A DNA stretch of 42,440 nucleotides from Calidithermus chliarophilus DSM 9957 (GTDB lineage: Bacteria > Deinococcota > Deinococci > Deinococcales > Thermaceae), in NCBI RefSeq assembly GCF_000430045.1, contig NZ_KE387023.1:930038-972477 (forward strand), read 5' to 3'. Below the pieces are notes generated by a model. It was given only the letters and a program-made list of their open reading frames with translations. It had not been told where the DNA came from and searched no databases. Of the stretch, positions 13,509-42,200 are shown piece after piece. How positions within the stretch are numbered: the first letter of the stretch is position 1; the number at the start of each line of letters is the position of its first letter. The position numbers and the translations under genes were made by a program.

Positions 13509-13514
13509 GAGGGT

Positions 13515-14543: not shown

Positions 14544-14564
14544 GGGGGTCCTCCTTTGGTGAGT

Positions 14565-14722
14565 GTCGTACGCTTTGCGTCGTACGTCATACGTCGTACG
14601 TCGTACGCAATACGCCAGACGCTAAACGCAAAACGCTAAACGCCAGAAACCACGACCCACCGGCTTCTTGCGTCCGGCAGTTTTTGGCTATCGACCATCG
14701 ACCATTGACTATCGACTACCGA
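14565..14722. repeat. Heptamer repeats, GTACGAC, GCGTTTT and CTATCGA families
   Basis: Bases 14565-14612 hold CGTACGT-type heptamers, 14613-14643 AAACGCT/AGACGCT-type heptamers, and 14687-14722 CTATCGA-type heptamers that end next to the aminotransferase stop codon at 14728. The array fills the whole gap between the aminotransferase and PotD paralogue 1. Confidence 0.88.
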
Positions 14723-14727
14723 CTTCC

Positions 14728-16080: not shown

Positions 16081-16144
16081 GGGTTCCTCGGTCGAGTTCG
16101 TAGGTCGCGGAGGCTTCGGGCAGCCCGCGACAGGTGTTTTGTCT

Positions 16145-16169
16145 TAGCTATCGGCTATCGACTATCGAC
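16145..16169. repeat. Short heptamer repeat, CTATCGA family
   Basis: Three to four units (AGCTATC, GGCTATC, GACTATC, GAC) between the PotD gene end and the aminotransferase start. Confidence 0.8.
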
Positions 16170-16216
16170 GTTCTCAGGCGGCGGGATGCTGGCCTTCTGG
16201 ATGTCCATACACCCCC

Positions 16217-18060: not shown

Positions 18061-18094
18061 AAGCAGCCTCCGGCCGTGCCGAACGCCAGGATAC

Positions 18095-18268
18095 GTCGAT
18101 AGCCGATAGCCGATAGCCGATAGCTAACGAGGGCTAGTGGCGTGTGGCCCACGGTCTGTCGAGGGTCCAGCGTCAAGGGTCGAAGGCCGAGGCGTTTTGC
18201 GTCTGGCGTAGGACGTACGACGTACGACGTATAACCCGCGTTTAGCGTTTTGCGTTCAGCGTTCAGCG
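18095..18268. repeat. Heptamer repeats between potB and potC
   Basis: Bases 18095-18126 hold GATAGCC-type heptamers and 18192-18268 hold GCGTTTT, GTACGAC and GCGTTCA-type heptamers that run up to the potB stop codon. About 65 bases of unassigned sequence lie between. Confidence 0.88.
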
Positions 18269-19174: not shown

Positions 19175-19192
19175 GGGCAGCCTCCGAAGGTG

Positions 19193-19328
19193 CCGAACGC
19201 CGAACGCCCAACGCCGAACGCCAGAACGCGCTGATAGCTACATGCAAAACGCAAAACGCCAAACGCTAAACGCTGAAAACCACAGGCACCGGCGTCTTGC
19301 GTCTTGCGTTTTGCGTCTCGCGTTCCAC
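19193..19328. repeat. Heptamer repeats between potA and potB
   Basis: Bases 19193-19275 are ACGCCGA, AACGCCA and AACGCAA-type heptamers; 19292-19328 are GCGTCTT/GCGTTTT-type units that end near the potA stop codon. Confidence 0.88.
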
Positions 19329-19336
19329 GCCAAAGG

Positions 19337-20407: not shown

Positions 20408-20417
20408 CGTGGTTCCT

Positions 20418-22067: not shown

Positions 22068-22116
22068 AACTCCACCTCCCCAAACCAGGACCAACGGGGG
22101 AATATGTCGTAGAACG

Positions 22117-23409
22117 TCAGGCCGTGGCGGCCTCGAAGCTGTGCCCCAGGATCTCCAGGCCCTTGCGCACCTCGTCCTCGCTCGCGACCAGCGGCACCAG
22201 GCAGCGGATGACGTTGTGGTGCATCCCGGCCTTCATCAGCAGCAAGCCGCGCTCGCGGGCCGCGTCGAAGACCCGGGTGGTGAGGGCGGGGTCGGGGGCC
22301 TTGCTCTCGCGGTCGCGCACGAGCTCCATCGCGACCATCGGCCCCAGGCCGCGCACGTCCCCGACCTGGGGGAAGCGCTCTTGGATCTCGCGGAAGCCCT
22401 CGTGCAGGATCTCGCCCAGCCGCCGGCCCTTCTCCAGAAGCTTCTCCTCCTCGAAGACCTCGAGCACCGCCAGCCCCGCCGCGCAGGCCAAGGGGTTCCC
22501 GGCGAAGGTGCCGCCCAGCCCGCCGGGCATGGGCGCGTCCATGATCTCGGCCTTGCCCAGCACCCCGGCGATGGGCAGCCCCCCGCCGATGCTCTTGGCG
22601 AAGCAGATGAGGTCGGGCTCGACGCCGGCGTGCTCGATGGCCCAGAACTTGCCGGTGCGCCCGATGCCGGTCTGGATCTCGTCGTCGATGAGCACGATGC
22701 CGTGCTTGGCGGTGAGGCTGCGCAGGGCCTTGAGGAAGGGGGTGGGGGCGGGCACGAAGCCGCCCTCGCCGAGCTGCGGCTCGATGATGACGGCGGCGAC
22801 GCGGTCGGGGGCGATCGCCGTGTCGAAGAGCTCGTGCAGGCCGTCCATGGCCCGGCGGGTGTCGAGGCCGTGGTACTCGTAGGGGTAGGGGGCGTGGTAG
22901 ACCTCGGGGGCGAAGGGCCCGAAGTTCTGGCGGTAGGGCGTGGCCTTGCCGGTGAGGCTCATGCCCAGCAGGGTGCGGCCGTGGAAGGCGTTCTTGAAGG
23001 CGATCACCCCGGGACGCCCGGTGTAGGCGCGCGCCACCTTCACCGCGTTCTCGGTGGCCTCGGCCCCGGTGGTGACGAAGAAGGCCTTCTTGTCGGCGTC
23101 GCCGGGCGCGCTGTCGCACAGCTTCTCGGCGAGCTTGATGTAGGGCTCGTAGGCCGTGACCTGGAAGCAGGTGTGGGCGAAGCGCTCGAGCTGCGCCTGC
23201 ACCGCCGCCACCACGCGCGGGTGGTTGTGCCCGACGTTGAGCACCCCGATCCCGCCGATCCAGTCGAGGTACTCGCGGCCGTCGACGTCCCAGATCTTGG
23301 CCCCCTGGGCCTTGGCCGCCACCACCGGGTGCACCTGGGAGACGCCGCGCGGGACCACCTTGTGCCGCAACTCCAGCAACGCCTGGTTGCGGGACTCTGT
23401 CGTGGGCAT
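22117..23409 (-). CDS. gabT: 4-aminobutyrate aminotransferase (enterobacterial-type GabT)
   Basis: A 430-residue class III PLP aminotransferase. Its N-terminus (VVPRGVSQVHPVVA, WDVDGREYLDWIGGIGVLNVGH) is close to that of E. coli GabT. It also has TTGAEATENAVKVAR, NAFHGRTLLG, IDDEIQTGIGRTGK and Lys272 in FAKSIGGGLP. AGGAGG precedes the ATG. It likely converts GABA to succinate semialdehyde for GabD at the end of the cluster. A second, differently derived aminotransferase is at 14728, so one of the two may act on putrescine or another omega-amine. Confidence 0.92.
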   Translation of the reverse strand: MPTTESRNQALLELRHKVVPRGVSQVHPVVAAKAQGAKIWDVDGREYLDWIGGIGVLNVGHNHPRVVAAVQAQLERFAHTCFQVTAYEPYIKLAEKLCDSAPGDADKKAFFVTTGAEATENAVKVARAYTGRPGVIAFKNAFHGRTLLGMSLTGKATPYRQNFGPFAPEVYHAPYPYEYHGLDTRRAMDGLHELFDTAIAPDRVAAVIIEPQLGEGGFVPAPTPFLKALRSLTAKHGIVLIDDEIQTGIGRTGKFWAIEHAGVEPDLICFAKSIGGGLPIAGVLGKAEIMDAPMPGGLGGTFAGNPLACAAGLAVLEVFEEEKLLEKGRRLGEILHEGFREIQERFPQVGDVRGLGPMVAMELVRDRESKAPDPALTTRVFDAARERGLLLMKAGMHHNVIRCLVPLVASEDEVRKGLEILGHSFEAATA

Positions 23410-23485
23410 GGGTTCCTCCTTTGGCTCACCAGCCTATTGGGGCCCCCGTGCGCCCGGCTATGGCGCCGGGCCACGAATTGCGCCC

Positions 23486-25084
23486 TCATTTATTGTGGCC
23501 CAGCTCCAATAGCTGCAGCCCGAGCTGGAGGCGGAACTGGGCCTGGGGGTCGCGCAGGTCGAGGCCGGTGAGCTGCTCGAGGCGCTCGAGGCGGTACCTC
23601 AGGGTGTTCTCGTGGACGCCCAGCGCGTGGGCGGTGCGCTTGAGCTGGAAGCCGTGCCGGGCCAGCGCCTTCAGCGTCTCCAGCAGCGCCTCGCGCCCGC
23701 GCTCGGCCTCCAGCGGCCCGAACAGCTCGCGCAGCAGGTCCTGCTGGGCCTGGGCATCCCCGGCCAGCACGCGCGGCAGCAGGAGCTGGGCGTAGGTGCT
23801 CACCCGCCCCGGGCGCAGGTGCGGCAGCAGGGCCTGCGACTCGCGGTAGCTCTCGGCCACCCCGGCCCAGCCCGCGCGGGCGCGGGAGAGCCCCAGGCTC
23901 AGGCCCTTCTGCGGCAGCCGCTCCCACACCCGCGCCGCGTCGAAGCCCTCGGGCAGCAGGAAGAGGACCTGGTTGAGGAAGACCGAGATCAAAGGGGCCA
24001 GCCCCTGCTCGCGCAGCAGCTTGCGCAGGCCCTCGGCCAGGCGCTCGCGGCGGTTGAAGCCCTCCGGGCTCAGCGGCACCGGCTCCTCGAGCACCAGCAA
24101 AGCCAGGTAGTAGCGGCCCTCGGGGTGGAAGCCCTGCAGGCGGGCGCGCTCGAGGTTGTGCGGGGTGGGCTCGAAGCGGCCCTCCAGCAGCGCGTCGAGG
24201 AAGGCGTAGCCCAGCCGGGCCTCGCGCTGGGCGATGTCGCGCTGGTGCATCAGGTGCAGCCCCGCCACCGTCGCGGCGTGCTCGGCGGCGCGCATGTCGA
24301 GCTCGGAGAGGGGCTCTTCCCCCTCGATCAGCCACACGCTGCCCACCAGCTCGCCCCCCAGCCGGATGGGGCAGACCACCCGCCCCACCATCCCGATCTC
24401 GGGCCGCGCCGGCAGCCGCAGCGGCCCCAAGCTCTCCCGCAGCCGGCGCTCGAAGCCGATCTCCTGCAGGTAGTGGCTGAGCTCGGGGGTGGTGCCGCCG
24501 GAGGCGATGGAGCGCAGGCGCAGCTCGTCCTCGCCGCCGGTGAGGGCGTAAGCCAGCAGGTTGCCCTCGAGGTCCTCGAAGACCACCGAGCGCCCGATGA
24601 GCCCGCTGAGCACGTCGGCCAGGGGTTGCAGGCCGCCGGCCTCGAGCGCCGAGAGCGTGAGCGCGCGGTGGATGGCCTCCGAGCGCTCGATGACGCTGTA
24701 CTGGCGGGCCAGGAGCTGCTGGTTGAGCTCCCCGATCACCTGGGAGAAGGGCACCTCCCAGGGCAGCTCGACGGCCGGGATGCCCGATAGCTCGGCCTCC
24801 TCGCGGGCGACCTCGGGGAAGCTCTCGAAGAACTGGGGGACCGCCAGCACGACGGCCGCGGGCTCGGCCCGGGCGATCTGGCGCATGAAGGCGCGCAGGG
24901 CCTGCTCCTCGCGGGGCCAGGCGTAGCCGGTGGTGAGGAAGAGGAAGCCGGGCCGGATCCACTCCTGGGGGTCGGGGATGTCCACCGCGTGCGCCCCCAG
25001 CACCCGGCTGTTCAGCCGCGCTGCCGCCGCGACCACCCGGGCCCGGCTGAGGGCGGGCAGGCGGAGGGCCTCGAGCAGGGTCAT
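23486..25084 (-). CDS. PucR/CdaR-family transcriptional regulator
   Basis: A predicted 532-residue cytoplasmic regulator. The N-terminal PucR-type sensor domain begins MTLLEALRLPALSRARVVA; a central GAF/GGDEF-like region follows; the C-terminal helix-turn-helix is LKRTAHALGVHENTLRYRLERLEQLTGL. The start at ATG 25084 fits the family N-terminus and possible leaderless transcription, because TTGACA (25124-25129) and TAGAAT lie just upstream. In-frame TTG codons at 25093 or 25129 are alternatives, but the latter would overlap the -35 box. Such proteins control purine, amine or sugar-acid catabolism; as first gene of the cluster it is likely its regulator. Confidence 0.88.
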   Translation of the reverse strand: MTLLEALRLPALSRARVVAAAARLNSRVLGAHAVDIPDPQEWIRPGFLFLTTGYAWPREEQALRAFMRQIARAEPAAVVLAVPQFFESFPEVAREEAELSGIPAVELPWEVPFSQVIGELNQQLLARQYSVIERSEAIHRALTLSALEAGGLQPLADVLSGLIGRSVVFEDLEGNLLAYALTGGEDELRLRSIASGGTTPELSHYLQEIGFERRLRESLGPLRLPARPEIGMVGRVVCPIRLGGELVGSVWLIEGEEPLSELDMRAAEHAATVAGLHLMHQRDIAQREARLGYAFLDALLEGRFEPTPHNLERARLQGFHPEGRYYLALLVLEEPVPLSPEGFNRRERLAEGLRKLLREQGLAPLISVFLNQVLFLLPEGFDAARVWERLPQKGLSLGLSRARAGWAGVAESYRESQALLPHLRPGRVSTYAQLLLPRVLAGDAQAQQDLLRELFGPLEAERGREALLETLKALARHGFQLKRTAHALGVHENTLRYRLERLEQLTGLDLRDPQAQFRLQLGLQLLELGHNK

Positions 25085-25097
25085 CGTCGTCAATGCT

Positions 25098-25129
25098 GAT
25101 TCTAGGTTTCTCCAGGGTGACTTTGTCAA
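25098..25129 (-). promoter_or_regulatory. Putative promoter of the regulator gene
   Basis: On the minus strand TTGACA (25129-25124) is followed about 19 bases later by TAGAAT, which ends roughly 14 bases before the chosen ATG. The spacing is slightly long. It overlaps the palindrome at 25115-25138. Confidence 0.45.
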
Positions 25130-29548: not shown

Positions 29549-29641
29549 GAACTCGCCCAGGGCCAGCTCGAGGGCCGCCTCGGCAGGAGCCTCATCGGCG
29601 ACGACGTGCGCCTCGACAGCGCGGCCCCCCCGGCGCTAGCG
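29549..29641 (+). pseudogene. Remnant of a 22-residue-repeat protein gene
   Basis: In one frame this stretch encodes one complete 22-residue unit (QLEGRLGRSLIGDDVRLDS plus AAP) and the first residues of the tail, PALA. It matches the last unit and tail start of the intact repeat protein at 27319 (QLSGRIGG...GKDVRL...AP, PEVAAL). Upstream there is no recognisable remainder, and the frame runs into the oppositely oriented ABC permease gene, which ends at 29636. It appears to be the 3' end of a deleted paralogue. Confidence 0.65.
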
Positions 29642-30523
29642 CCGGCGCATCCGGCTCATGGCAGCCGTAGCCAGCAGGGTGGTCAGCACGGGGGCGATCC
29701 CCACCACGGCCAGGTCGGCGGCCATGGGGAGCTGCTGGTAGTGGAGGCTCACCGCGCGCAGCAGGTCGAGGAAGTAGGTCACGGGGTTGAGGTAGACCAG
29801 CACCTGCAGCCACAGCGGTAGCTGCACCACCCACCCCCCGCCGATGGCGTTGATGCCCAGGCGGTTGAGCTCGTCGCGCAGGGCGTCGGGCAGGTCCAAA
29901 AACCCCACCCCGCCGATGATGCCCTTGAGGGGGAAGATCGAGCCCGACAGGAAGTACAGCGGCTGGATCACCCCGTTGGAGATGCTGCCGAAGCCCTCGA
30001 AGGTCGCCATGCGCGAGGCCAGGAACATCCCGAAGCCGGTGACGGTGAGGCCCAGCAGGGCCATCACCCCCCACGCCAGCAGCAGCCCGCCCAGGCCCGG
30101 GTTCACCCCGATGAGGGGGGCGAAGAGCAGGGGGATGGAGCCCTGGAGCACCGCCACGCTGGCCCCGCCCAGCAGCTTGCCCAGCGCCACCGAGAACATG
30201 GGGGCGGGGGAGACGAGCACCTCCCGCAGCAGCCCCACCTCGCGGTCCCACACCAGTGCCACTGCCGACTGCAGCGCGGCGAAGAGCACGTTGAGGGTGA
30301 TGACGCCGGGGAAGATGTACTGCGCGTAGGTGTAACCCTCGATGTCGCGGAAGGAGGCCCCCAGGCCGAAGCCCAGGATCACCAGCCACAGCACCGTGCG
30401 GGAGAGGCCGCCGAAGACCTGCGAGCGGTCGCGGGCGTAGCGCAGCAGCTCGCGCCGCCACATCACGCCCACCACCGCCGCGTCGAAGAAGGGGGCCCTG
30501 GGGGCCCGGGCCAGGGCGCTCAC
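29636..30523 (-). CDS. ABC-2 type permease of the PQQ alcohol dehydrogenase system
   Basis: A 295-residue inner-membrane protein of the ABC-2 (export-type) permease family with about six hydrophobic segments. Conserved features include WRRELLRYARDRSQVFG, YIFPGVITLNVLF, the cytoplasmic loop DREVGLLREVLVSPAP and PLYFLSGSIFPL. The start is GTG 30523, overlapping the ATPase stop by four bases (GTGA), which points to translational coupling. Permeases of this kind accompany PQQ-dependent alcohol oxidation genes in Pseudomonas (PedC type). The transported compound is not known; export of a toxic alcohol or aldehyde, or of a cofactor, are both possible. Confidence 0.87.
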   Translation of the reverse strand: MSALARAPRAPFFDAAVVGVMWRRELLRYARDRSQVFGGLSRTVLWLVILGFGLGASFRDIEGYTYAQYIFPGVITLNVLFAALQSAVALVWDREVGLLREVLVSPAPMFSVALGKLLGGASVAVLQGSIPLLFAPLIGVNPGLGGLLLAWGVMALLGLTVTGFGMFLASRMATFEGFGSISNGVIQPLYFLSGSIFPLKGIIGGVGFLDLPDALRDELNRLGINAIGGGWVVQLPLWLQVLVYLNPVTYFLDLLRAVSLHYQQLPMAADLAVVGIAPVLTTLLATAAMSRMRRR

Positions 30524-31323
30524 CGGGTGTGCTCCCCGCCCTTGCGGGCGAAACCCAGCAGGCGGTCGCGGGGGCGGGCCTCCTCGTCGCGCAGCTTGCG
30601 GCCGGTGAGCTCGAGGAAGACCTCCTCGAGGCTGCCCTCGGCCCGGCCCAGCACCTTCAGCTTGAGCGCGGCCGGGGCGCCCTCCGCGATCAGGCGGCCC
30701 TGGTCGAGGATGCCCACCCGGTCGCAGGCCTCGGCCTCCTGCAGGTAGTGGGTGGTCATGAACACCGTCAGGCCCTGCCCGCGCAACCCGTCGATGCGCT
30801 CCCACAGGTGCCGCCGCCCCTGGGGGTCGAGGCCGAGGGTGGGCTCGTCGAGGAAGAGCACCTGCGGCGTGTGCATGAGGGCGCGCGCGAGCTCGAGCCG
30901 CCGCTTCATCCCCCCGGAGAAGGTGCGCACCGGGCGGCGGGCGGCCTCCGCGAGGCTGGCCCACTCCAGCGCCTGGGCGATGGCCGCCTTCAGCCGCGCG
31001 CCCCGGATGCCGTAGAGCACCCCGTGGATCTCGAGGTTCTCCTGCGCGGTGAGGCGCTCGTCGAGCGCGGGCTCCTGGAACACCACGCCGATGGCGGCCC
31101 GCACCGCCGCCGCCTGGCGCACCACGTCGAAGCCGACGACCCGGGCCTCGCCCGAGCTGGGCGGCAGCACCGTGGTGAGCATGTGCACCGCCGTGGACTT
31201 GCCCGCCCCGTTGGGCCCGAGGAGGGCGAAGAGCTCCCCCGCCTCCACGGCGAGGCTGAGGGCGTCCACCGCCACGGCTTCCCCGAAGCGGCGGCTGAGG
31301 TCGTGGCACTCGATGGCGGGCAT
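30520..31323 (-). CDS. ABC-2 type ATPase of the PQQ alcohol dehydrogenase system
   Basis: A 267-residue cytoplasmic ATPase with Walker A GPNGAGKS, Q-loop VFQEPALDERLTA, signature FSGGMKRR, Walker B VLFLDEPTLGLDP and the switch histidine in MTTHYL. The EEVFLELTGR tail is typical of DrrA/CcmA-like exporter ATPases. ATG 31323 lies 2 bases after the upstream gene's stop; GAGG in the upstream coding end is the ribosome site. It pairs with the permease that overlaps its 3' end. Confidence 0.92.
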   Translation of the reverse strand: MPAIECHDLSRRFGEAVAVDALSLAVEAGELFALLGPNGAGKSTAVHMLTTVLPPSSGEARVVGFDVVRQAAAVRAAIGVVFQEPALDERLTAQENLEIHGVLYGIRGARLKAAIAQALEWASLAEAARRPVRTFSGGMKRRLELARALMHTPQVLFLDEPTLGLDPQGRRHLWERIDGLRGQGLTVFMTTHYLQEAEACDRVGILDQGRLIAEGAPAALKLKVLGRAEGSLEEVFLELTGRKLRDEEARPRDRLLGFARKGGEHTR

Positions 31324-31325: not shown

Positions 31326-32315
31326 CTACCTCAGGACCCCCCCGGCGGCCTCGAGCGCCCCCAGGGTCTGCTCGCAGGCGGCGCCGACCCGCGCCGTCCC
31401 GCCCGCGCGGATCGCCGCGGGCAGCGAGTCCTGCAGCAGCGCGCCCAGCCGGTCGCCGAGGGCGGGCTCGAGCGCGCCGAGCGGGTCGGCCAGGTGGGCA
31501 CGGTAGTAGAAGCGCGCGGCGGCGGCGTGCTCGAGGGCCAGCCGCCCGGGCCCCGAGCGCGCGGCCTGGCAGGCCTGTTCGGTCTGCCGGCGCACCAGCG
31601 CGACCAGCGGGGGCAGCTCGCGCGGCAGCAGGGGCGTGCGCACCGCGGCCTCCAGGGCGAAGGCGACGTCCAGGCTGGCCCGCTCGGCGTCCTCGGGGTC
31701 GCGGAAACGCGCGGGCGGGGCCGGGGAGGGCAGGAGCGCGGCCAGGGCCTCGAGGCCCTGGGCCACCCGCGGGGTGGCCTCGCGGCCGCGCAGGGAGGGC
31801 TCGAGCCGGCCCCACAGCACCCGCGCCCGCTGCAGGGCGCCCCAGCCCAGCCGGTACGCGCCCTCCTCCCCCTCCGCCGCCTCCTCGTAGCCCTCGGCCG
31901 CCGCCTCGACGAGCTGCGCCAGCAGCGCGGCCTGGAAGGCCGCGTCGGCGCGCAGCTCGCGGGGGATGAGGGCCTGGCGGGCCTGCTCGAGCAGCACCAG
32001 GTTGGCCCCCAGGCTCGCCCGCAGCCGCGCCGCGTCGCGCTGGCGGGCCCACTGCCCCGCCCGGCGCAGGGCCTGCTCGAGCCGGCGGTACAGCCCGGCG
32101 TCGCGCCGCTCCAGGCTCCCCGCGAAGAGCGGCCAGTGCTCGAGCTCGGCGGCCTCGGCCAGCTCGCCGGCGGGCTCCAGGGCCAGCGCCGCGAGGTGGA
32201 GGCCGACCTGCTCGGAGGCCAGGGCGAAGCGCAGGGGCTCGGCCCGCTCGACCAGCAGCGGCCCGGCGGCGTAGGCGGGGGCCAGGAGCAGCGCCAGCAG
32301 GGCCAAAGGCCTCAC
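31326..32315 (-). CDS. Secreted alpha-helical protein of unknown function
   Basis: A 329-residue protein I do not recognise. It has a signal peptide (MRPLALLALLLAPAYA then AGPLL) and is otherwise rich in Ala, Leu, Arg and Glu, so it should be almost all helix, perhaps a helical-repeat or coiled structure. It has no cysteine-pair haem or metal motif and no PQQ-type propeller signature. The start is GTG 32315, overlapping the stop of the beta-propeller gene (GTGA), and its stop is 2 bases from the ATPase start. It is therefore an integral part of the PQQ operon and presumably acts outside the cytoplasm with it. Confidence 0.8.
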   Translation of the reverse strand: MRPLALLALLLAPAYAAGPLLVERAEPLRFALASEQVGLHLAALALEPAGELAEAAELEHWPLFAGSLERRDAGLYRRLEQALRRAGQWARQRDAARLRASLGANLVLLEQARQALIPRELRADAAFQAALLAQLVEAAAEGYEEAAEGEEGAYRLGWGALQRARVLWGRLEPSLRGREATPRVAQGLEALAALLPSPAPPARFRDPEDAERASLDVAFALEAAVRTPLLPRELPPLVALVRRQTEQACQAARSGPGRLALEHAAAARFYYRAHLADPLGALEPALGDRLGALLQDSLPAAIRAGGTARVGAACEQTLGALEAAGGVLR

Positions 32316-33328
32316 TGCACCACCCCGATCACCACCGAGTGGGGGCCCCGCCCCGCGGCCACCTTTTTGACCACGCTCAGGCTGGCGGCGTCGATGACCG
32401 TGACGCTGTCGGAGAGGCCGTCGGCGGTGTAGATCTTCTTGCCGTCGGGGCTCACCGTGACCCCCCAGGGCCGCCGCCCCATGCGCTCCTTGACGGTCTT
32501 GATCAGCTTGTTGGTGGCGGTGTCGATGACGTAGATGGTGCTGGTGCCGCCCCCCGCCGCGAACAGGCGCTTGCCGTCGGGGGAGAGGGCGAGCTCGACG
32601 AGCCTCGAGTCCAGCCCCAGCGCTACGGTCTGGACCACCTGATGGGTCTTGGTGTCCACCACCGAGACCGTGCCGCCGATCTCGGCCGAGACGTAGGCGC
32701 GGCTGCTGTCGGGCGAGAAGACCACGTGGCGCGGCCGGTTGCCCACCAGGAAGTGCTTGACCAGCTTCAGGCCCTTGGCGTCGATCACCGTCACGGTGTG
32801 GCTGGTCTCGCCGGTGACGTAGACGAAGCGGCCGTCGGGGCTCACCGCCACCCCCTCCGGCTCGACCCCGGTGGGGAAGGAGCCCAGCACCTGCTTGGTC
32901 TTGAGGTCGAAGCCGGTGCCCTTGGCCGCGTTCTCGTTGGAGGCCCAGAGCTGGCCGCCGTCGGGGCTTACCGCCACCCGCTCGGGGTTGGTGCCGATGC
33001 GGTACTCCGCCACCACCTTGTTGCTGGCGACGTCGATGGCCACGATCTTGTCGTCGGGGGTCTCGAGGCGGGGCTGGAAGTCGCTGAGGGCCACGTACAC
33101 CGTCCGCCCGTCGGGGCTCACCGCCATGCCCCGCGGGCGCACCTCGCCGGGGCGGCCGGCGACCTGGATGGTGCCGATGACCTGGTCGGTGGCGACGTCG
33201 ATGACCGTGATGCTGGCGCCGTACTCGTTGGACACGTAGGCCCGGTACTTGGCCTGCGGCTGCGCCAGCGAGAAGAGGGCGGGCAGCAGCGCGAGCAGCA
33301 GGGCGAGGGGGGGCAAGGCTTTGGGCAT
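32312..33328 (-). CDS. Secreted YVTN-type beta-propeller of PQQ alcohol catabolism
   Basis: A 338-residue exported propeller. The signal peptide ends near residue 22 (FSLA then QPQAK). The rest holds about seven repeats around SPDGR/SPDGK and Y-V-T/S motifs (YVSNEYGASITVIDV, AVSPDGRFVYVTGETSHTV, AVSPDGKKIYTADGLSDSV). Proteins of this type are regularly encoded beside PQQ-dependent alcohol dehydrogenases; their exact function is not settled. ATG 33328 overlaps the preceding stop by one base (TGATG). Confidence 0.9.
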   Translation of the reverse strand: MPKALPPLALLLALLPALFSLAQPQAKYRAYVSNEYGASITVIDVATDQVIGTIQVAGRPGEVRPRGMAVSPDGRTVYVALSDFQPRLETPDDKIVAIDVASNKVVAEYRIGTNPERVAVSPDGGQLWASNENAAKGTGFDLKTKQVLGSFPTGVEPEGVAVSPDGRFVYVTGETSHTVTVIDAKGLKLVKHFLVGNRPRHVVFSPDSSRAYVSAEIGGTVSVVDTKTHQVVQTVALGLDSRLVELALSPDGKRLFAAGGGTSTIYVIDTATNKLIKTVKERMGRRPWGVTVSPDGKKIYTADGLSDSVTVIDAASLSVVKKVAAGRGPHSVVIGVVQ

Positions 33329-34650
33329 CAGCGTCCTCCGAAGCGGCAGTTGAAGTCGCGGGGGCCGTCGCCGAGCTGATCGAGCCGCTCGACGGGGTCG
33401 GTCCCGGGCTTGACGATGGCGGGGGCCTCGCCGACGAGGCTGGCCAGGCCCACCCGCTTGGAGAGCTCGAAGCCGGGGTTGGGCTCGGCCTTGATCTTGA
33501 CCAGGTAGAAGGGCTGGCGGAGCTGGTGGTCCCAGGGCCGGAAGGACACCCCGATCCCCTTGTGCACGTCGAAGACGGTCTGGGGCCGCTCGAGGTAGGG
33601 CACCAGACGGCCGGCCTCGAGGCTGCGGGCGAAGAAGGCGCTCTCGTAGAGCATCTTGACCGACTGGTAGGCGGCCCAGCCGGGCGAGTCCATGGGCTGG
33701 CCCCAGCGCTGCTGGAAGCGCGCGTTGAGCTCGCGGGCGCCGTAGTTGTCGAGGGTGGGCTCCCACAGCAGCGGGCGGTAGCCGGCCGCGCTGCGGGGCG
33801 CGACGCGCAGCAGGGCGTAGAAGTAGTCGCGGGTCTGGGTGAGGGGGTCGGGGAAGCCGGTGACCTGGGCCCGCAGGCCGGAGGTCTCGTACTGGCCCAG
33901 AAAGGTCATCTGGTCCTCGCCCCCCAGCAGCAGCACCACCACGTCGGCCCGGGCCCTGCCGATGGCCTCGAGCTCCTTGCTGAAGTCGGGCTGGCCCGCG
34001 GCGACGGCGGCGGTGCCGGCGACGTTGGCCCCCCAGTGGCGCACCTCGAGGGCCTTGCGGGCCCGCGCCAGCAGGGCCTGCCCCCCGGCGTCGCGGGTGT
34101 GGACCAGGAACCAGCGCCGGAAGTTGGCCCGCACGAACCAGTCGGCCAGGGCGTCGAGGTACATGGCCGCGCTGGCTTCGACGTGGAAGGTCAGGCGGTT
34201 GCAGGCGCGCCGCAGGGCGTCGCTGGCGTTGCCGATGTTGAAGAACAGCACCCGGCGCTCCTGGGCCACCTTGGCGATGGCCTCGGCCTGGCCGGGCCCG
34301 ATGCCGCCCACCAGGGCGAAGACCCCCTCCGTGGCGACGAGCCGCTGCGCGGCGCGGGCAGCGGCCTCGGGGCTGGGGGCGCTCGCCAGCAGCACCTTGA
34401 CCCGCGTCCCCAGCAGCTCGGCGTTCTCGCCCACCTCCTCCCCGGCCATCACCGCGCCCATGCGGGCGATCTCGCCGCCGATGGCGTGGGCGGAGGAGGA
34501 GACGGGCTGCTCGAGGCTCCCGGTGCGGGTGGGCACCACCACCCCGATGCGGATGAGCTTGGGGGGTTGGCCCTGGCCCAGGGCCTGCGCGGCCAGCAAG
34601 CCTCCCCCCAGCGCCAGCACCTGGCGGCGGGTGAGCCGAGGTTCTTTCAT
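33328..34650 (-). CDS. Tat-exported ABC-type substrate-binding protein of PQQ system
   Basis: A 440-residue periplasmic binding protein related to the branched-chain amino-acid receptor fold and to binding proteins annotated with PQQ alcohol dehydrogenase systems. The N-terminus has a twin-arginine signal (LTRRQVLALGGGLLAAQALG). Features include IRIGVVVPTRTGSLEQP, VFALVGGIGPGQAEAIAKVA and the C-terminal CRFGGR. ATG 34650 overlaps the MoxJ-like gene's stop by four bases (ATGA); a longer open frame upstream runs through that gene and is rejected. No importer permease accompanies it, so it may sense or carry rather than import. Confidence 0.88.
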   Translation of the reverse strand: MKEPRLTRRQVLALGGGLLAAQALGQGQPPKLIRIGVVVPTRTGSLEQPVSSSAHAIGGEIARMGAVMAGEEVGENAELLGTRVKVLLASAPSPEAAARAAQRLVATEGVFALVGGIGPGQAEAIAKVAQERRVLFFNIGNASDALRRACNRLTFHVEASAAMYLDALADWFVRANFRRWFLVHTRDAGGQALLARARKALEVRHWGANVAGTAAVAAGQPDFSKELEAIGRARADVVVLLLGGEDQMTFLGQYETSGLRAQVTGFPDPLTQTRDYFYALLRVAPRSAAGYRPLLWEPTLDNYGARELNARFQQRWGQPMDSPGWAAYQSVKMLYESAFFARSLEAGRLVPYLERPQTVFDVHKGIGVSFRPWDHQLRQPFYLVKIKAEPNPGFELSKRVGLASLVGEAPAIVKPGTDPVERLDQLGDGPRDFNCRFGGR

Positions 34651-35465
34651 GGCTTCTTGACCTCCAGCACGGGTTTGGGCAGGGGGATCTGCGGCACGCC
34701 GTACTCCTTCAGGATGGCCTGGATCTGGTCCCAGCGCCGGACCAGGGCGATGTTGAGCCGGTCGCGCAGGGCCTCGTCCCCTGCCCGCACCCCGATGACC
34801 ACGGGGTAGACCATGGAAATGGCGGGTAGCTCGAACTCCGGCTGCACGGGGACCACCTTGAGCTTCGTCGGCTGCCGGCGGGCGAAGTAGCCCGCCACCG
34901 GGCCCCACACGATCGCCACGTCCACCTGCCCCTTGGCCACCGCCTCGACGATGGGGGAGGAGGGGGGCGAGGCGGCGGGGTCGGTGGCCTCGAGGATGAC
35001 CGCCTTGGCCGACAGGCCCCGGTTGGCCAGCGCCTCGAAGGGCGGCACCCCCGGCGTCTCGACGGCCACGCGCAGCTCCTTGAGCACCGGGTCGTCCATC
35101 GAGGCGACGGCGTAGGGGCTGTCCTCGCGGTAGACGAAGACGAAGCTGCTCTGGTAGTACGCCAGCGTGGAGAGCGTGCCCTCGTAGCCCTCGCCCAGGC
35201 CCAGGATCAGGTCGCAGTGGCCCTCGCGCAGGCGCATGTGGACCATGCTGGGGCTGCGTTTCCACCACACGTAGGTCAGCCGGGCCCCCAGGTCCTTCGC
35301 CAGGAGCTCGGCGATGCGGTTGTCGAAGCCCTGCATCTGGCGGTTGGAGAAGGGCAGGTCGTCCGGGTCGGCGCACACCCGCATCTCCCAGCCCTGCGCG
35401 GCGCCGAGCTGCCCCAGGAGGAGGAGGGCGCAGAGGAGGCCGGGCCAGGCCGAGCGTCCCCTCAT
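34647..35465 (-). CDS. MoxJ/XoxJ-like periplasmic binding protein
   Basis: A 272-residue exported protein of the quinoprotein-dehydrogenase-associated binding-protein family. After the signal peptide (ends near GAAQG) comes the diagnostic MRVCADPDDLPFSNR followed by GFDNRIAELLAKDLGARLTYVWW and HCDLILGLGEGYE. In methylotrophs the related MoxJ/XoxJ is needed for maturation or activity of the methanol dehydrogenase. GGAG precedes the ATG, and its stop overlaps the next gene. The dehydrogenase gene lies 148 bases upstream. Confidence 0.9.
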   Translation of the reverse strand: MRGRSAWPGLLCALLLLGQLGAAQGWEMRVCADPDDLPFSNRQMQGFDNRIAELLAKDLGARLTYVWWKRSPSMVHMRLREGHCDLILGLGEGYEGTLSTLAYYQSSFVFVYREDSPYAVASMDDPVLKELRVAVETPGVPPFEALANRGLSAKAVILEATDPAASPPSSPIVEAVAKGQVDVAIVWGPVAGYFARRQPTKLKVVPVQPEFELPAISMVYPVVIGVRAGDEALRDRLNIALVRRWDQIQAILKEYGVPQIPLPKPVLEVKKP

Positions 35466-35613: not shown

Positions 35614-37401
35614 TCAGTTGGGCACGTGGAAGACGAACAGGAAGTTGCCCTTGCGCTGGAAGGCCCCGACCGTGCCGTTGCCCACGTCGTCGAGGTCGAT
35701 GGCGCGGTTCCCGAAGCCCTTCGACCCTACCAGGATGGCCACGTACTGCTTGCCGTCGGGGCCCAGGTAGGTCATGGGGTTGGCGTAGGTCCCGGCCCCC
35801 GTCCTGAATTGCCACAGCACCTGGCCGGTGCGGGCGTGGACGGCCTTGAAGTAGCCGTCGACGGTGCCGTAGAACACCAGGTCGCCGGCGGTGACCACGG
35901 TGCCCGAGCGGTTGTGGAAGGGTTCCTTAACGCTCCAGGCCTCGCGCTGGTTAACGGGGTCCCAGGCCATCAGCGCCGAGCGGACGTTGGCGGCCGAGAG
36001 GAACTTGGCGGTGCTGCGCACGCCGATGTAGCGCTCCCCCGGCTTGTAGTCGACGTCGATGGCTTCCTGGTCCATGCAGATGTTGAGCACGGTGGTGAAG
36101 TAGAACAGCCCGGTGCGCGGGGAGTAGGAGGCCGGCTGGAAGTTCTTGCCGCCGATGAGGTAAGGACAGATGTCCTTGATCACCTGGCCGGGCACCAGCA
36201 GCTTGTCCTTGTTGAAGACGGGCCGCCCGGTCTTGAGGTCGTAGCCCGAGGCCCAGTTGGTCTCGACGTAGGGCTTGGCCGAAAGCAGTTCGCCCGTGGC
36301 GCGGTCGAGCACGAAGAAGAAGCCGTTGCGCCCGGCGTGGACCAGCGCCTTGCGCGTCTGCCCGCCGATGTTGAGGTCGACGAGGTTCATGTCGCCGACC
36401 TCGTCGTAGTCCCACTGCTCCTGCGGGGTGAACTGGTAGGCCCAGATCAGCTCGCCGGTGTCGGGGTTGCGGGCCAGCACCGAGGCGACGTACTTGTTCG
36501 ACCACACGAAGGGGTCGGGGTTGTTGGGGTCGCGGCGGTACTTGGGGTTCCAGGGGCCGCCGTTGGAGGTGCCGTAGTAGATGAGGTTGAGCTCGGGGTC
36601 GTAGGTGATGTAGCCCCAGGTGGTGCCGGTGCCGCGCTGCCAGGAGTCGCCGAACCAGGTCGCGGTGCCGGGCGACTTCACCTGGTCGTCGGGGTAGAAG
36701 GGCTTGAAGTTGGGGCCGATGAGCATGTCGGCGTCGGGGCCCATGCTGTAGCCGCGCCACTTGCGCTGGCCGGTGGCCAGGTCGTAGCCGGTGACGTGCC
36801 CGCGGTTGCCGAACTCGCCCCCTGCCATGCCGACGATCACCGTGTTGCCGGCGATGATGGCGGGCGCGGTCTGGACTTCCTGCTTCTCGATGTCGCCGTT
36901 CTGGGCCTTCCAGACCTCTTTGCCGGTCTTGGCGTCGAGGGCGATGAGCTGGCCGTCGAGGGTGGCGATGATGATTTTCCCCTGGGCGTAGGACCAGCCG
37001 CGGCTCATCAACCCGCAACAGGTCACGGGGATGGCCTTCTCGTTCTGTTTGGGCTCGTACATCCACTTGATGACGCCCTCACGCCCGGGCCGCAGGTCCA
37101 GGGCGTAGACCTGGTTGGGGTAGGGAGCCATGATGTACATGGTGTCGCCAATGACCAGGGGCTCGCCCTCCACCCCGTCCTGTTGCACCCCCAGGGCGAA
37201 GGTCCACGCGACCTGCAGCCGCCGGGCGTTGAGTGTATTGATCTGGCTCAGAGGGCTGTAGCGCAGGCCGTCGTAGCTGCGGCCCGTCATCACCCACTGG
37301 CCCTGGTCGCGCTGCAGGGATACCAGCTCCGGGTTGGCCATTGCCCAGCCCAAAAGCGACACCGCCGCCGCCAGGAAAATTCCTCGGATATTACCCCGCA
37401 T
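35614..37401 (-). CDS. PQQ-dependent alcohol dehydrogenase, predicted lanthanide-type
   Basis: A 595-residue periplasmic quinoprotein with signal peptide (ends near WAMA) that oxidises an alcohol using PQQ and a metal. It has the adjacent cysteines 128-129 (VTCCGL) that form the ring disulfide, metal ligands Glu196 (GMAGGEFGNRG) and Asn280 (GTSNGGPWNP), and catalytic Asp331 in EQWDYDEVGDM. Asp333, two residues later, is the extra aspartate seen in XoxF, ExaF and PedH, where it binds a lanthanide; calcium enzymes have Ala, Ser or Thr there. Lanthanide dependence and substrate (methanol or longer alcohol) are inferred. GAGGAG precedes the ATG. It lies between the cytochrome c gene and moxJ-like gene. 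Confidence 0.93.
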   Translation of the reverse strand: MRGNIRGIFLAAAVSLLGWAMANPELVSLQRDQGQWVMTGRSYDGLRYSPLSQINTLNARRLQVAWTFALGVQQDGVEGEPLVIGDTMYIMAPYPNQVYALDLRPGREGVIKWMYEPKQNEKAIPVTCCGLMSRGWSYAQGKIIIATLDGQLIALDAKTGKEVWKAQNGDIEKQEVQTAPAIIAGNTVIVGMAGGEFGNRGHVTGYDLATGQRKWRGYSMGPDADMLIGPNFKPFYPDDQVKSPGTATWFGDSWQRGTGTTWGYITYDPELNLIYYGTSNGGPWNPKYRRDPNNPDPFVWSNKYVASVLARNPDTGELIWAYQFTPQEQWDYDEVGDMNLVDLNIGGQTRKALVHAGRNGFFFVLDRATGELLSAKPYVETNWASGYDLKTGRPVFNKDKLLVPGQVIKDICPYLIGGKNFQPASYSPRTGLFYFTTVLNICMDQEAIDVDYKPGERYIGVRSTAKFLSAANVRSALMAWDPVNQREAWSVKEPFHNRSGTVVTAGDLVFYGTVDGYFKAVHARTGQVLWQFRTGAGTYANPMTYLGPDGKQYVAILVGSKGFGNRAIDLDDVGNGTVGAFQRKGNFLFVFHVPN

Positions 37402-37551: not shown

Positions 37552-38346
37552 CTAGCGGTTGGCCTTGACCTCCTCTGCGGTCGTGACGCCGAACTGGTTG
37601 CCCCAGGAGTTGCGGATGTAGGTGGTCACTGCCGCGACCTCCTGGTCGGAGAGGGTGCCGCCGAAGCCCGGCATCTGCTGGCCCCCGCCCAGGATCTGGC
37701 GGATGGTGAAGCGGGCGTCCTTGAGGTTAGGAACCCCGGCCAGCTTCGGACCCACGCCGCCGGCCCCGTTGGCGCCGTGGCAACCCGCGCAGTAGCGGGT
37801 GTACAGCGGCTCCCCCTCGGCCATGAGCTTGGCCATGGCCTCGCTTTGAGCCGGGGCGGGCTGGGCGGGCTGGGCAGGTTGGGTCGCCTGGGCCGCCTGC
37901 CGGATGGCCTCACCCTTGGGCGACACCAAGAACCAGTTGCCCCCCACCCCCTGCCCGCCGAAGTCGCCGGGTTTCTGGTCGCGGGCGTAGTAGTACAGCG
38001 GCCAGCCGTTGTACGTGATCTGCGAGCCCGCCCCGTCGGTGCGCTTGGTGAAGCCCAGCAGCTTCTCGTCCACGCCCTGGCCCGCCAGGGGCTTGGCCTT
38101 GTCCTTGAACAGCAGCGGAGGCCAGTTCTGCGCGCAGGTGCCGTAGCAGGTGACGGTGTCCTTGGTGTCCCGGGTGAACAGGTACAGCGAGCGGCCCTTG
38201 AGGTCGGTGAGGTAGGCGCCGTAGGTCGGGCTTTGCGCGACCAGTACGTCGAGTTCCTCAGGGTCGTAGGCGGTGGCCCCGGGGAGGAGCATCGAACACA
38301 CCACACCGAGCACGACGAGCCGTTTGATCCTTACCCCTTTGCGCAT
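37552..38346 (-). CDS. Exported cytochrome c fused to Y-X4-D secreted repeats
   Basis: A 264-residue periplasmic protein. After a signal peptide (VVLGVVCSMLLPGATA), residues about 30-155 contain two repeats of the secreted Y-X4-D type: YGAYLTDLKGRSLYLFTRD with CYGTCAQNWPPLL, and ITYNGWPLYYYARD. A Pro/Ala/Gln linker joins them to a C-terminal cytochrome c domain with haem motif CAGCH and a probable axial Met in QQMPGFGG. It is the likely electron acceptor for the PQQ dehydrogenase downstream. The start chosen, ATG 38346, has GGAGG 6-7 bases upstream; an earlier in-frame start lacks this. Confidence 0.9.
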   Translation of the reverse strand: MRKGVRIKRLVVLGVVCSMLLPGATAYDPEELDVLVAQSPTYGAYLTDLKGRSLYLFTRDTKDTVTCYGTCAQNWPPLLFKDKAKPLAGQGVDEKLLGFTKRTDGAGSQITYNGWPLYYYARDQKPGDFGGQGVGGNWFLVSPKGEAIRQAAQATQPAQPAQPAPAQSEAMAKLMAEGEPLYTRYCAGCHGANGAGGVGPKLAGVPNLKDARFTIRQILGGGQQMPGFGGTLSDQEVAAVTTYIRNSWGNQFGVTTAEEVKANR

Positions 38347-38701: not shown

Positions 38702-39499
38702 ATGGAACGCTACGTGATCCAGGCGGCTTACAAGACGCTACAAGTTCTGCTGGCCTTTACCCACGCCCCCCACCGCTTCTCGCTGGTCGAGCTCACCGAG
38801 CTGACTGGGATGGACAAGAACCAGGTCTTCCGGGCGGTCAAGACCCTCGAGCACGCCGGTTTCCTGAGCAGCGAGCCCGACGGGAAGCTGGTCCTGACCT
38901 CCGTGGTCAACGCTCTGGCGGTGGGCAACCCCCGCCTGGCCGCGGTGTCGCTGCCCCGGGCCGCCTCCAGCCACATGTCCCGCCTGTTCGAGCAGTCGGG
39001 CGAGACGGTCGCGCTCTACGCCTACGACGGGGAGCAGGCGGTGTGCATCGACGTGATCGAGAGCGCCAAGGCCGTCCGCTGGTCCTCGATGCTGGGCAAG
39101 CACTTCCACCTGCACGCCGGGGCGGGGGCCAAGACCATCCTGGCCTACCTCGAGCCCCGCGCCCAGCAGGCCTTCCTGGCCAAACTGCCCACCCTCCCCA
39201 AGTACACCCCGCGCACCATCACCGACCCCGAGCTCATGCGGCGCGACATCGAGCGCACCTGCGAGCGGGGCTACGCGGTCAGCGACCGGGAGTACGACGC
39301 GGAAACCCGCGTCGTCGGGGCCCCCATCTTCGGGTCGAACGGGCGGGTGGCGGGCTCGATCACCGTGGGCGGCCCCGCCTTCCGCATCGACGACGAGCAC
39401 CTGCAGATCTACGGCCACATGGCCGTGGGCACGGCCGCCGAGATCTCGGCGGAGATGGGCTTCCTCAGGCTGGGCTCGAGGCGCCTCTCCGCCTCCTAG
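38702..39499 (+). CDS. IclR-family transcriptional regulator
   Basis: A 265-residue regulator with an N-terminal winged helix (ALKT-type opening YKTLQVLLAF, then LVELTELTGMDKNQVFRAVKTLEHAGFL) and a C-terminal effector domain with HLHAGAGAKTILAYL and a late VAGSITVGGPAFRI. IclR proteins sense small acids or aromatics from catabolism. It is divergent from the PQQ operon and in front of an ABC importer, so it may control both; this is inferred from position. The ATG is probably leaderless, given the promoter 9 bases upstream. Confidence 0.93.
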   Translation: MERYVIQAAYKTLQVLLAFTHAPHRFSLVELTELTGMDKNQVFRAVKTLEHAGFLSSEPDGKLVLTSVVNALAVGNPRLAAVSLPRAASSHMSRLFEQSGETVALYAYDGEQAVCIDVIESAKAVRWSSMLGKHFHLHAGAGAKTILAYLEPRAQQAFLAKLPTLPKYTPRTITDPELMRRDIERTCERGYAVSDREYDAETRVVGAPIFGSNGRVAGSITVGGPAFRIDDEHLQIYGHMAVGTAAEISAEMGFLRLGSRRLSAS

Positions 39500-39573: not shown

Positions 39574-40560
39574 ATGGGCGCAGGCGTGAGGTTGTTGGCG
39601 CTGCTCGCCATCCTGGCGGCGGGCAGTTGGGCTTTGGCTCAGGAGCCCCGGGTCGTGCGGGTGGGGCTCCAGGCAGGGGGCACGTTCAGTTGGGTGGTCT
39701 ACGCGATCGAGCGTTTCGGCATCGACAAGCAACTGGGCATACAGGTCAAGGAGGTGACTTACCCCTCCAAGCAGGCCACCCAGATCGCCCTGCGCTCGGG
39801 CGAGGTGCAGGTCACGGTGGACGACTTCATCGAGGCGGTCCGGATGCAGCAGCAGGGGATCCCGGCTCGAGCGGTCTACCCCTACAGCCTGGTGACGGGC
39901 GGGGTGGTGGTCCGGGCCGACAGCCCCATCAAGAGCGTCGCCGACCTCAAGGGCAAGACCATCGCCGCGCAGAGCCTGGGGGACAAGAGCCTGCTCATCC
40001 TGCGGGCGCTGGCGGTCTTCAAGTACGGCTTCGACCCCCAGAAGGACAGCAAGGTGGTGGCCGCCGCCCCGCCGCTGATGGCCGAGCTGCTGCGTAGGGG
40101 CGAGATCGACGCGGGCCTGCCCTTCTGGCACTTCGTCGCCCGCCAGGTGGCCTCGGGCGAGTCGCGCGAGCTGATCTCGGCCGCCGCCATGCTCAAGGAG
40201 CTCGGCGCCCCGCCGGACCTGCCGCTGCTGCTGATCATCGCCCGCAACGACGCCGACGCCGGCACCATCGAGCGCCTGCTCAAGGCGGTCCAGCTCGCCA
40301 ACCAGCGCATGAGGGAGACCGACGCCTTCTGGAAGGAGATCCTCGACAGAAACCTCTACGCCCTGCCCGACCCCTCCCTCATGCCCGCCGTGCGCAAGCG
40401 CTGGGAGGCGGGCCTGCCCCAGCGCTGGGACGCGGGGGTGGTGGTGGGCCTGACCAACCTGGTGCAGCGCATGGTGCAGGTGGCGGGCGCGGAGGTGGTG
40501 GGGGTCTCGCGCTTCGACGCGCGGGCCTACAGCACCCAGTTCAGGCCGCTGGGCGACTAG
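39574..40560 (+). CDS. NMT1/SsuA-type ABC substrate-binding protein
   Basis: A 328-residue exported binding protein of the SsuA/TauA/ThiY fold. The signal peptide ends near residue 23 (SWALA then QEPRV). VVRVGLQAGGTFSWVVYAIERFGIDKQLGI, YPSKQATQIALRSGEVQVTVDD and SPIKSVADLKGKTIAA are typical of the family. AGGAAAGGGG precedes ATG 39574; an in-frame extension into iclR is rejected. The ligand could be a sulfonate, an aromatic acid, a pyrimidine or another small organic molecule. It is followed by permease and ATPase genes. Confidence 0.88.
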   Translation: MGAGVRLLALLAILAAGSWALAQEPRVVRVGLQAGGTFSWVVYAIERFGIDKQLGIQVKEVTYPSKQATQIALRSGEVQVTVDDFIEAVRMQQQGIPARAVYPYSLVTGGVVVRADSPIKSVADLKGKTIAAQSLGDKSLLILRALAVFKYGFDPQKDSKVVAAAPPLMAELLRRGEIDAGLPFWHFVARQVASGESRELISAAAMLKELGAPPDLPLLLIIARNDADAGTIERLLKAVQLANQRMRETDAFWKEILDRNLYALPDPSLMPAVRKRWEAGLPQRWDAGVVVGLTNLVQRMVQVAGAEVVGVSRFDARAYSTQFRPLGD

Positions 40561-40626
40561 GGGGAAAGGCGGCGACCGTGCTGAAGCAACCGTCTATGGC
40601 CGCAACGCGCCCGGGGCAGGGGTAGC

Positions 40627-41430
40627 GTGGAGACCCTGCCCGCGCGGGCCCAGCCCCGCGCCACGGGGGAATTGTCCCGTTCGCTGGGGCTGCGCCTGCT
40701 GTCGCTGCTGTCGATCGTGCTGGCGTGGCTGCTGTTGTCGTGGCTGATGGGGCGCACGGTGGTCCCGGGGCCGCTCGAGACCGTCGCCTTCCTGGTTCGC
40801 GAGCACGAGCGCGGGCAGTTGTGGCTGCACGTCGGCATCACCTTGTGGCGGGTGATGGTGGCCTTCACCATCACCATGGCCCTGGGCGTGCTGATCGGGG
40901 TGGCGGTGGGGGCCTCGCGCACCCTCGACCGGCTGCTGGAGGCCTGGGTGGTCACCGGGCTGGCGGTCCCCCGCATCCTGCCGCTGGTGGTGTGCTACTT
41001 GCTCATCGGGCTCAACGACACCGCGGCCATCGTGGGGCTGGTGATCATCCTGGTGCCGCAGGTGGTGGTGCAGATGCGCGAGGGCATCCGCGCCATCGAC
41101 CTCAAGCTGGTGGAGATGGCCCGCGCCCTGCGCCGCCCCCGGGGCCAGATCTGGCGGCAGGTGGTGCTGCCCCAACTGGCCCCCTACCTGCTGGGCACCG
41201 CGCGCGGCGCGCTGTCGCTGAGCTGGAAGATGGTGGTGTTCGCCGAGCTGCTCGGCCGCACGAGCGGGGTGGGCTACCAGATCAACTTCTACTTCCAGAT
41301 GTTCGAGATGCGCGGCATCCTGGCCTACGGGCTGGCCATGACCCTGGTGCTGGCGGCCGTGGACCTCACGATGCTGGCTTTGGGCGAGCGGGCCTTCCGC
41401 TGGCGGCGGCCGGTGGAGCGGGTGGTCTGA
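40627..41430 (+). CDS. ABC permease (SsuC/TauC-type)
   Basis: A 267-residue inner-membrane permease with about six hydrophobic segments. The ATPase-contacting EAA loop is seen near EMARALRRPRGQIWRQVVLPQLAPYLL, and WKMVVFAELLG is typical of SsuC-like permeases. The start used is GTG 40627, with a G-rich ribosome site; a later start would remove little beyond a polar N-terminus. Its stop overlaps the ATPase start by one base. Confidence 0.9.
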   Translation: METLPARAQPRATGELSRSLGLRLLSLLSIVLAWLLLSWLMGRTVVPGPLETVAFLVREHERGQLWLHVGITLWRVMVAFTITMALGVLIGVAVGASRTLDRLLEAWVVTGLAVPRILPLVVCYLLIGLNDTAAIVGLVIILVPQVVVQMREGIRAIDLKLVEMARALRRPRGQIWRQVVLPQLAPYLLGTARGALSLSWKMVVFAELLGRTSGVGYQINFYFQMFEMRGILAYGLAMTLVLAAVDLTMLALGERAFRWRRPVERVV

Positions 41431-42200
41431 TGGCGGGGATCCGCTGCACGGCCCTGCGCAAGGTGTTCGCCTCGAGCCGGGGCCCTAAGGTGGTGCTGGA
41501 GGGGGTGAACCTGGAGGTGAGGAGCGGGGAGTTCGTCGCCGTCCTGGGCCCCTCGGGCTGCGGCAAGAGCACCTTGCTCAACATCCTCAGCGGCCTGGAG
41601 CGCGACTACGAGGGCCGGGTGAGCTTCCCCGGCTTCGCCGGGCGCGGTGAGCCCGTCCTGGGCTACGTGTTCCAGGAGCCCCGCCTGCTGCCGTGGATGA
41701 CGGTGCGGCAGAACATCCACTTCGCCCTCGAGGCCACCCCCTCCCCGGAGGCGGGCGCGCGGGTGCGGAACTGGCTCGAGCGGGTGGGCCTGGCCGACTA
41801 CTACGACTACTACCCCAACCAGCTCTCCGTGGGCATGCAGCACCGCGTGTCCCTGGCCCGTGCCCTCATCCTCGACCCCCAGGTGCTGCTGCTCGACGAG
41901 CCCTTCAGTTCCCTCGACGAGATCACTGCCATGAGCATGCGCGGGGAGGTGCTGGAGCTGTGGAAGGAGCAGCGGGGGACGGTGCTGCTGGTGACCCACA
42001 ACCCCCTCGAGGCGGTCTACCTCGCCGACCGGGTGCTCATCATGGCCGCCAACCCCGGGCGCATCGTCGCCGAGCTCGATCTCACCGGGCGCCTGCCGCG
42101 ACCCCGCGACCCCGAGGACCGGCGGCTGTGGGAGCTCTCCCGCGAGACCGTGCGCCTGCTCTCCCCCCACCTCCGCCTGGGCAGTGCGGCCGGCGGCTGA
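41430..42200 (+). CDS. ABC transporter ATPase (SsuB/TauB-type)
   Basis: A 256-residue ATPase with Walker A GPSGCGKST, Q-loop FQEPRLLPW, Walker B VLLLDEPFSSLDE and switch histidine in LVTHNPLEA. The signature is LSVGMQHR rather than the usual LSGGQ. FQEPRLLPWMTV is a hallmark of nitrate/sulfonate/taurine importer ATPases. ATG 41430 overlaps the permease stop (TGATG), so the pair is probably translationally coupled. Confidence 0.93.
   Translation: MAGIRCTALRKVFASSRGPKVVLEGVNLEVRSGEFVAVLGPSGCGKSTLLNILSGLERDYEGRVSFPGFAGRGEPVLGYVFQEPRLLPWMTVRQNIHFALEATPSPEAGARVRNWLERVGLADYYDYYPNQLSVGMQHRVSLARALILDPQVLLLDEPFSSLDEITAMSMRGEVLELWKEQRGTVLLVTHNPLEAVYLADRVLIMAANPGRIVAELDLTGRLPRPRDPEDRRLWELSRETVRLLSPHLRLGSAAGG

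Follow-up and report, generated by a model that had tools for sequence, protein, structure and literature searches.

Gene organization of the xoxF locus

The window, meaning the whole 42,440-nucleotide stretch of DNA analysed here, came from the genome of Calidithermus chliarophilus DSM 9957 (4.69 Mb, 99.97% complete). The initial annotation had placed the DNA in a probable Deinococcota genome, which was right: Calidithermus, a hot-spring relative of Thermus, belongs to the family Thermaceae of that phylum. An operon on the minus strand encoded, in order, a COG4315-cytochrome c, a dehydrogenase, XoxJ, a PedA1-type protein, a PedA2-type protein, a 329-aa protein, a PedB-type protein, and a PedC-type protein. 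The gene for an IclR-family regulator (38702-39499, plus strand) was divergent from this operon, and its product was 81% identical to that of the C. roseus gene in the corresponding position.

The open reading frame at 35614-37401 (minus strand) started with ATG and encoded a XoxF-like PQQ alcohol dehydrogenase of 595 aa, an assignment drawn from TIGR03075, PDB matches, alignment, and phylogeny. The GC contents at its three codon positions (0.60, 0.44, and 0.95) showed the structure of a coding sequence, and a Sec-type signal peptide was recognized by eye. In the profile search, the protein scored 599 bits with TIGR03075 (PQQ methanol/ethanol dehydrogenase), the cut-off of which is 480. The closest solved structures were all XoxFs, namely SolV XoxF2 (4mae, 543 bits), XoxF5 (6dam, 484 bits), XoxF1 of Methylacidimicrobium thermophilum AP8 (7o6z, 478 bits), and another XoxF5 (6oc5, 472 bits), while the top MxaF structure (5xm3) reached 413 bits. 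An AlphaFold2 model built from four sequences, the protein and three relatives, had a low pLDDT of 58. No relative turned up in viral contigs when these were scanned with the XoxF alignment; no Rfam match was present in the window, and a promoter scan found nothing.

Directly upstream of the dehydrogenase, the gene at 37552-38346 (minus strand) encoded a fusion of a COG4315-type repeat (Lipoprotein_15) and a cbb3-type cytochrome c domain with one CxxCH motif. The locus resembled those of XoxF in having an adjoining XoxJ and a cytochrome c gene nearby, but the cytochrome was not of the XoxG family (TIGR03872, 27 bits versus a cut-off of 148). Homologues of the fusion were found beside XoxF in C. 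roseus (locus L032) and in f3 (loci L043-L048), a second family of the same order as Thermaceae. The fusion is predicted to be the electron acceptor that replaces XoxG and may represent a new acceptor for XoxF-like enzymes. Three copies of it were seen near the C. roseus dehydrogenases (L032:5727-7442 and 11579-12343).

Downstream of the dehydrogenase, a XoxJ/MxaJ-type periplasmic protein was encoded at 34647-35465 (minus strand). It matched TIGR03871 above the cut-off (244 bits), and its top PDB match was the XoxJ structure 6onp (E value 1.7e-36). XoxJ and the PedA1-like binding protein, separate in the window, formed a single fused ORF in C. roseus (L032:9355-11436) and in the f3 loci L043-L048. 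C. roseus also had a second, distant PQQ-dehydrogenase-like protein (L032:12359-14032) beside the first, with its own fusion of XoxJ and binding protein; by alignment, this protein contained neither the adjacent-Cys pair nor the Glu and Asn ligands.

PedA1A2BC-type transporter genes

All four PedA1A2BC gene types were found together with the PQQ dehydrogenase, downstream of xoxJ and on the same minus strand. They encoded a PedA1-type substrate-binding protein (33328-34650; Peripla_BP_6), a PedA2-type YVTN beta-propeller (32312-33328), a PedB-type ABC ATPase (30520-31323), and a PedC-type ABC-2 permease (29636-30463; ABC2_membrane). Their scores all fell below the curated cut-offs: 126 bits for TIGR03863 (PedA1), 245 bits against 287 for TIGR03866 (PedA2), 219 bits against 302 for TIGR03864 (PQQ_ABC_ATP, PedB), and 114 bits against 241 for TIGR03861 (PedC). 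In Pseudomonas putida, PedA1A2BC is a lanthanide uptake system required for growth at low La3+, and its loss raises the need for La3+ about 100-fold (PMC6839425). PedA1A2BC is absent from P. aeruginosa PAO1, a strain without a rare-earth dehydrogenase (PMC12997753). By analogy with P. putida, where the same binding protein, propeller, ATPase, and permease types occur, the transporter of the window would handle lanthanide. The window differs from that system in the sub-cut-off scores, in the extra 329-aa protein between propeller and ATPase, and in having IclR as the sole regulator adjoining the locus.

Across the phylum, XoxJ was present in 14 and the PedA2-type propeller in 13 of the 111 Deinococcota genomes, and the same 13 genomes had both (Fisher p 5e-16). 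The 329-aa protein (31326-32315), with a signal-like N-terminus and no Pfam or NCBIfam match, was conserved between pedA2 and pedB: its counterparts occupied this position in C. roseus (47%) and in G043, a small Thermaceae genome (45%), with weaker ones in the f3 loci. It is a candidate for a new part of lanthanide handling.

The region of the XoxF-like gene on pSymB of S. meliloti (L055) was similar, with a PQQ dehydrogenase, a cytochrome, a XoxJ-type protein, an ABC binding protein, and a YVTN propeller as in the window; its glutathione-linked formaldehyde genes and SoxYZ-like/metallohydrolase genes had no counterpart in the window.

Probable PqqT-type ABC importer

Beyond the IclR regulator, a PqqT-type ABC transporter (39574-42200, plus strand) was encoded divergently from the xoxF operon. 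It consisted of a periplasmic binding protein homologous to PqqT of Methylorubrum extorquens and putatively PQQ-binding (39574-40560), an ABC permease (40627-41430; BPD_transp_1), and an ABC ATPase (41427-42200). The homology to PqqT (9b1u, 9b1v) was full-length, at 32% identity, and the permease and ATPase genes followed that of the binding protein. When the genome was searched with PqqT, this protein was the single match at E values up to 0.1 (1.9e-30). Structure 9B1V has been named as PqqT with PQQ and Gd (PMC12828617).

From these features we infer that the transporter imports PQQ. A rival reading, which we consider unlikely but worth weighing, keeps the lanthanide PQQ dehydrogenase and lets PQQ enter by diffusion, the transporter carrying a ligand of the sulfonate, nitrate, or thiamine-precursor type. 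The binding protein does lie within the broad NMT1/SsuA superfamily, whose members have many ligands, and its identity to PqqT is no more than 32%. Against this, PqqT was its top PDB match (9b1u/9b1v/9ooz, 2e-29) and the next binding protein, SsuA (2x26), reached 0.0017, which places PqqT 26 orders of magnitude ahead. The distribution of the gene in the phylum also argues against another cargo. PqqT-like genes were found in 18 of 111 Deinococcota genomes; they tracked PQQ dehydrogenases, being present in 13/15 genomes with a PQQ dehydrogenase match versus 3/86 without (p 7e-12), and overlapped XoxJ in 13 of 14 genomes (p 4e-12), both p values being inflated because related genomes were counted as independent. 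The two PQQ-dehydrogenase genomes that had no PqqT-like gene (G015 and G050) were those with the weakest dehydrogenase matches. The PqqT-type genes of C. roseus were arranged as in the window. In G043, a single strand carried one gene run of the dehydrogenase, xoxJ, two binding proteins, the propeller, the ATPase, the permease, and the PqqT-type protein with its own permease and ATPase. The first gene of the G043 module (L068, 7371-18703) encoded another kind of PQQ dehydrogenase (37% identity), in which the metal Asp pair was kept and the adjacent Cys pair was absent.

Metal and PQQ sites of the dehydrogenase

In XoxF, PQQ is held between a Trp and a disulfide, a lanthanide polarizes its C5, an Asp serves as the base, and the alcohol is oxidized to the aldehyde with transfer of the electrons to cytochrome c. 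C128-C129, E196, N280, D331, and D333 of the dehydrogenase, which the initial annotation had listed, were all at the positions it gave and aligned with C104-C105, E172, N256, D299, and D301 of SolV XoxF (4mae). The alignment showed the four metal ligands in every one of the nine full-length sequences of the Deinococcota clade, namely the window protein, that of C. roseus, and seven from f3. The second Asp (D333 in the dehydrogenase) is replaced by Ala in MxaF, and it was absent from each of the calcium references in the alignment (MxaF, ExaA, ADH IIB, ADH IIG, and 1kb0).

The floor Trp (W262) and two arginines (R134 and R358) were also kept. At the positions that contact PQQ in MxaF (MxaF numbers), E55, C103-C104, R109, T159, E177, T241, W243, N261, D303, R331, and N394 were conserved, and three residues were altered: S174 was A193, W476 was R498, and W540 was F563 in the dehydrogenase. 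The two tryptophan replacements also set the protein apart from XoxF, whose DRNG and VNE motifs read GRNG and VGD here. Since the ligands and most of the PQQ contacts were kept and few were changed, the metal and quinone sites appear to be largely intact, with a different rim of the pocket.

Phylogenetic placement

In a tree of 53 sequences, the Deinococcota clade (nine rows, support 100/100), made up of the window protein, the C. roseus protein, and the f3 sequences, was sister to all sampled methanol dehydrogenases, and MxaF was nested in XoxF. A tree of 33 sequences had the same topology (clade of eight rows, 100/100; methanol dehydrogenase side 94/89). On the 33-sequence tree, the AU test rejected two alternative groupings of the dehydrogenase, that with MxaF at p 0.008 and that with PedH/ExaA at p 2e-77. 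The clade was sister to XoxF1/2/3/5 and MxaF, so the dehydrogenase lay outside the sampled XoxF clades. XoxF3 was probably represented by rows L054 and L058, since the dehydrogenase gene of L054 was followed by cox and assembly genes, as reported for the neighbourhood of XoxF3 (PMC10875860). The sister placement is provisional and could shift with added phyla, because XoxF4 and most non-proteobacterial XoxF were missing from the tree, and so, as the contig scan gave only three loci, were Acidobacteria, Gemmatimonadota, and Rokubacteria.

The family link drawn in the initial annotation, to XoxF, ExaF, and PedH, thus held for XoxF and failed for ExaF/PedH, and the protein is predicted from its sequence to work like XoxF without belonging to any sampled XoxF clade. 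The proposal that the enzyme uses rare-earth metals stands as a prediction supported by the extra Asp in all nine clade members, the rejected MxaF grouping, and the XoxJ and PedA1A2BC-type genes in the operon. There is a small chance that, the extra Asp notwithstanding, the protein instead depends on calcium or is equally active with both metals: two tryptophans that contact PQQ in XoxF/MxaF are replaced, and lanthanide binding is itself a prediction. The conservation of this Asp throughout the clade and its absence from the calcium references, the company of the PedA1A2BC-type genes, and the tree all speak against calcium.

Absence of PQQ biosynthesis genes

PqqB, PqqC, and PqqE were not found in the source genome, and the same held for C. 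roseus and for those f3 genomes that were searched; in the control genomes G101 and G102, all three were above the cut-off (1e-96 to 1e-165). None of the 111 Deinococcota genomes had PqqE. These missing genes, the PqqT-type importer, and the PedA1A2BC-type set go beyond what had been annotated, and XoxF systems differ from that of Calidithermus in the first respect as well as in the cytochrome. Scavenging of PQQ by bacteria that do not make it is widespread, via the outer-membrane receptor PqqU (PMC12124388). Since the three proteins were not found, PQQ would be taken from outside, and the PqqT-type importer would be its main supply in Calidithermus; in M. extorquens, by contrast, PqqT supplements a PQQ maker.

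A weak match to PqqE was given by a SPASM-type radical SAM protein of the source genome (G000:C3:1776715; 67 bits, cut-off 381). It offers a foothold to the idea that PQQ is made by a divergent route missed by the PqqB/C/E models, to which we assign a still smaller chance than to a calcium enzyme. A nearby gene reads, by eye, like a ferrochelatase (L049:11270-12223) and therefore points to haem synthesis, so we discounted the match, taking it for a SPASM protein that probably serves haem synthesis; moreover, a divergent route has to account for three separate missing pathway proteins. Least probable of all is a quinoprotein-like propeller that is "empty", having given up PQQ, which could explain the absence of PqqB, PqqC, and PqqE and to which a TIGR04528 (acido-empty-quinoprotein) match of 311 bits might point. 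That score is far under the cut-off of 650 and below the 599 bits for TIGR03075, the protein keeps its disulfide, its floor Trp, both Arg, the metal ligands, and the base, and a PqqT-type gene adjoins.

Proposed function of the locus

Taken together, the locus probably equips a PQQ scavenger with a lanthanide-PQQ alcohol dehydrogenase and with importers for the two cofactors. The residues, the tree, the gene order, the missing biosynthesis genes, and the co-occurrence that form the basis of this reading were obtained by computation. The metal, substrate, electron route, and cargo of both transporters are what we infer from them, the enzyme part by homology to XoxF. In this scheme, PQQ would be taken up from outside through the divergent PqqT-type ABC importer, and the PedA1A2BC-type transporter would handle the lanthanide. 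The periplasmic, lanthanide-dependent dehydrogenase, of a Deinococcota clade sister to XoxF and MxaF, would hold PQQ between Trp262 and the Cys128-Cys129 disulfide and bind a rare-earth ion through Glu196, Asn280, Asp331, and Asp333, the ion polarizing the C5 carbonyl of PQQ. With Asp331 as the base, a primary alcohol, possibly methanol, would be oxidized to the aldehyde, and the COG4315-cytochrome c, whose gene lies immediately upstream, would receive the electrons. XoxJ would support the maturation of the dehydrogenase.

A broader proposal, which we put at slightly less than an even chance, is that Deinococcota hold separate early-branching lanthanide alcohol dehydrogenases that live wholly on scavenged PQQ, with an import unit of PqqT-type and PedA1A2BC-type transporters and the 329-aa protein of unknown family encoded alongside. 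If this is true, hot-spring Thermaceae are lanthanide users dependent on PQQ from their neighbours, and the metal-binding Asp predates the split of XoxF and MxaF. A clade that branches before this split and carries the extra Asp bears on the question of whether lanthanide came before calcium in methanol dehydrogenases, and lanthanide metabolism in hot-spring communities would be tied to the exchange of cofactors if a PQQ scavenger carries both importers next to the enzyme.

XoxF-like genes of the clade were present in 7 of the 111 Deinococcota genomes. A literature search, in which papers containing both terms were mostly judged by title or abstract and one had the terms in unrelated passages, found no report of XoxF in Deinococcota, so the phylum seems to be an addition to the lanthanide users, and a cultured type strain, C. 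roseus, exists. The initial annotation had seen novelty in a wider range, such enzymes being best known from Proteobacteria, and in a heat-stable version. Both points are weaker than presented, since earlier reports of XoxF cover Verrucomicrobia, Acidobacteria, Gemmatimonadetes, and Rokubacteria (PMC10875860), Binatota (PMC8262859), and a thermophile, M. thermophilum AP8, with an optimum of 50 °C (PMC8546591).

Other genes in the window

At 9496-25129, the window carried a cluster with an aldehyde dehydrogenase, an amidohydrolase, two class-III aminotransferases (one of GABA type), an amine oxidase, an ABC transporter, and a PucR-type regulator, which looks like a cluster for amine or polyamine use. 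The gene at 5640-8858 (plus strand) encoded a protein of 1072 aa, possibly a secreted nuclease or phosphatase, in which Big_5, endonuclease/exonuclease/phosphatase, and lamin-tail domains were combined.
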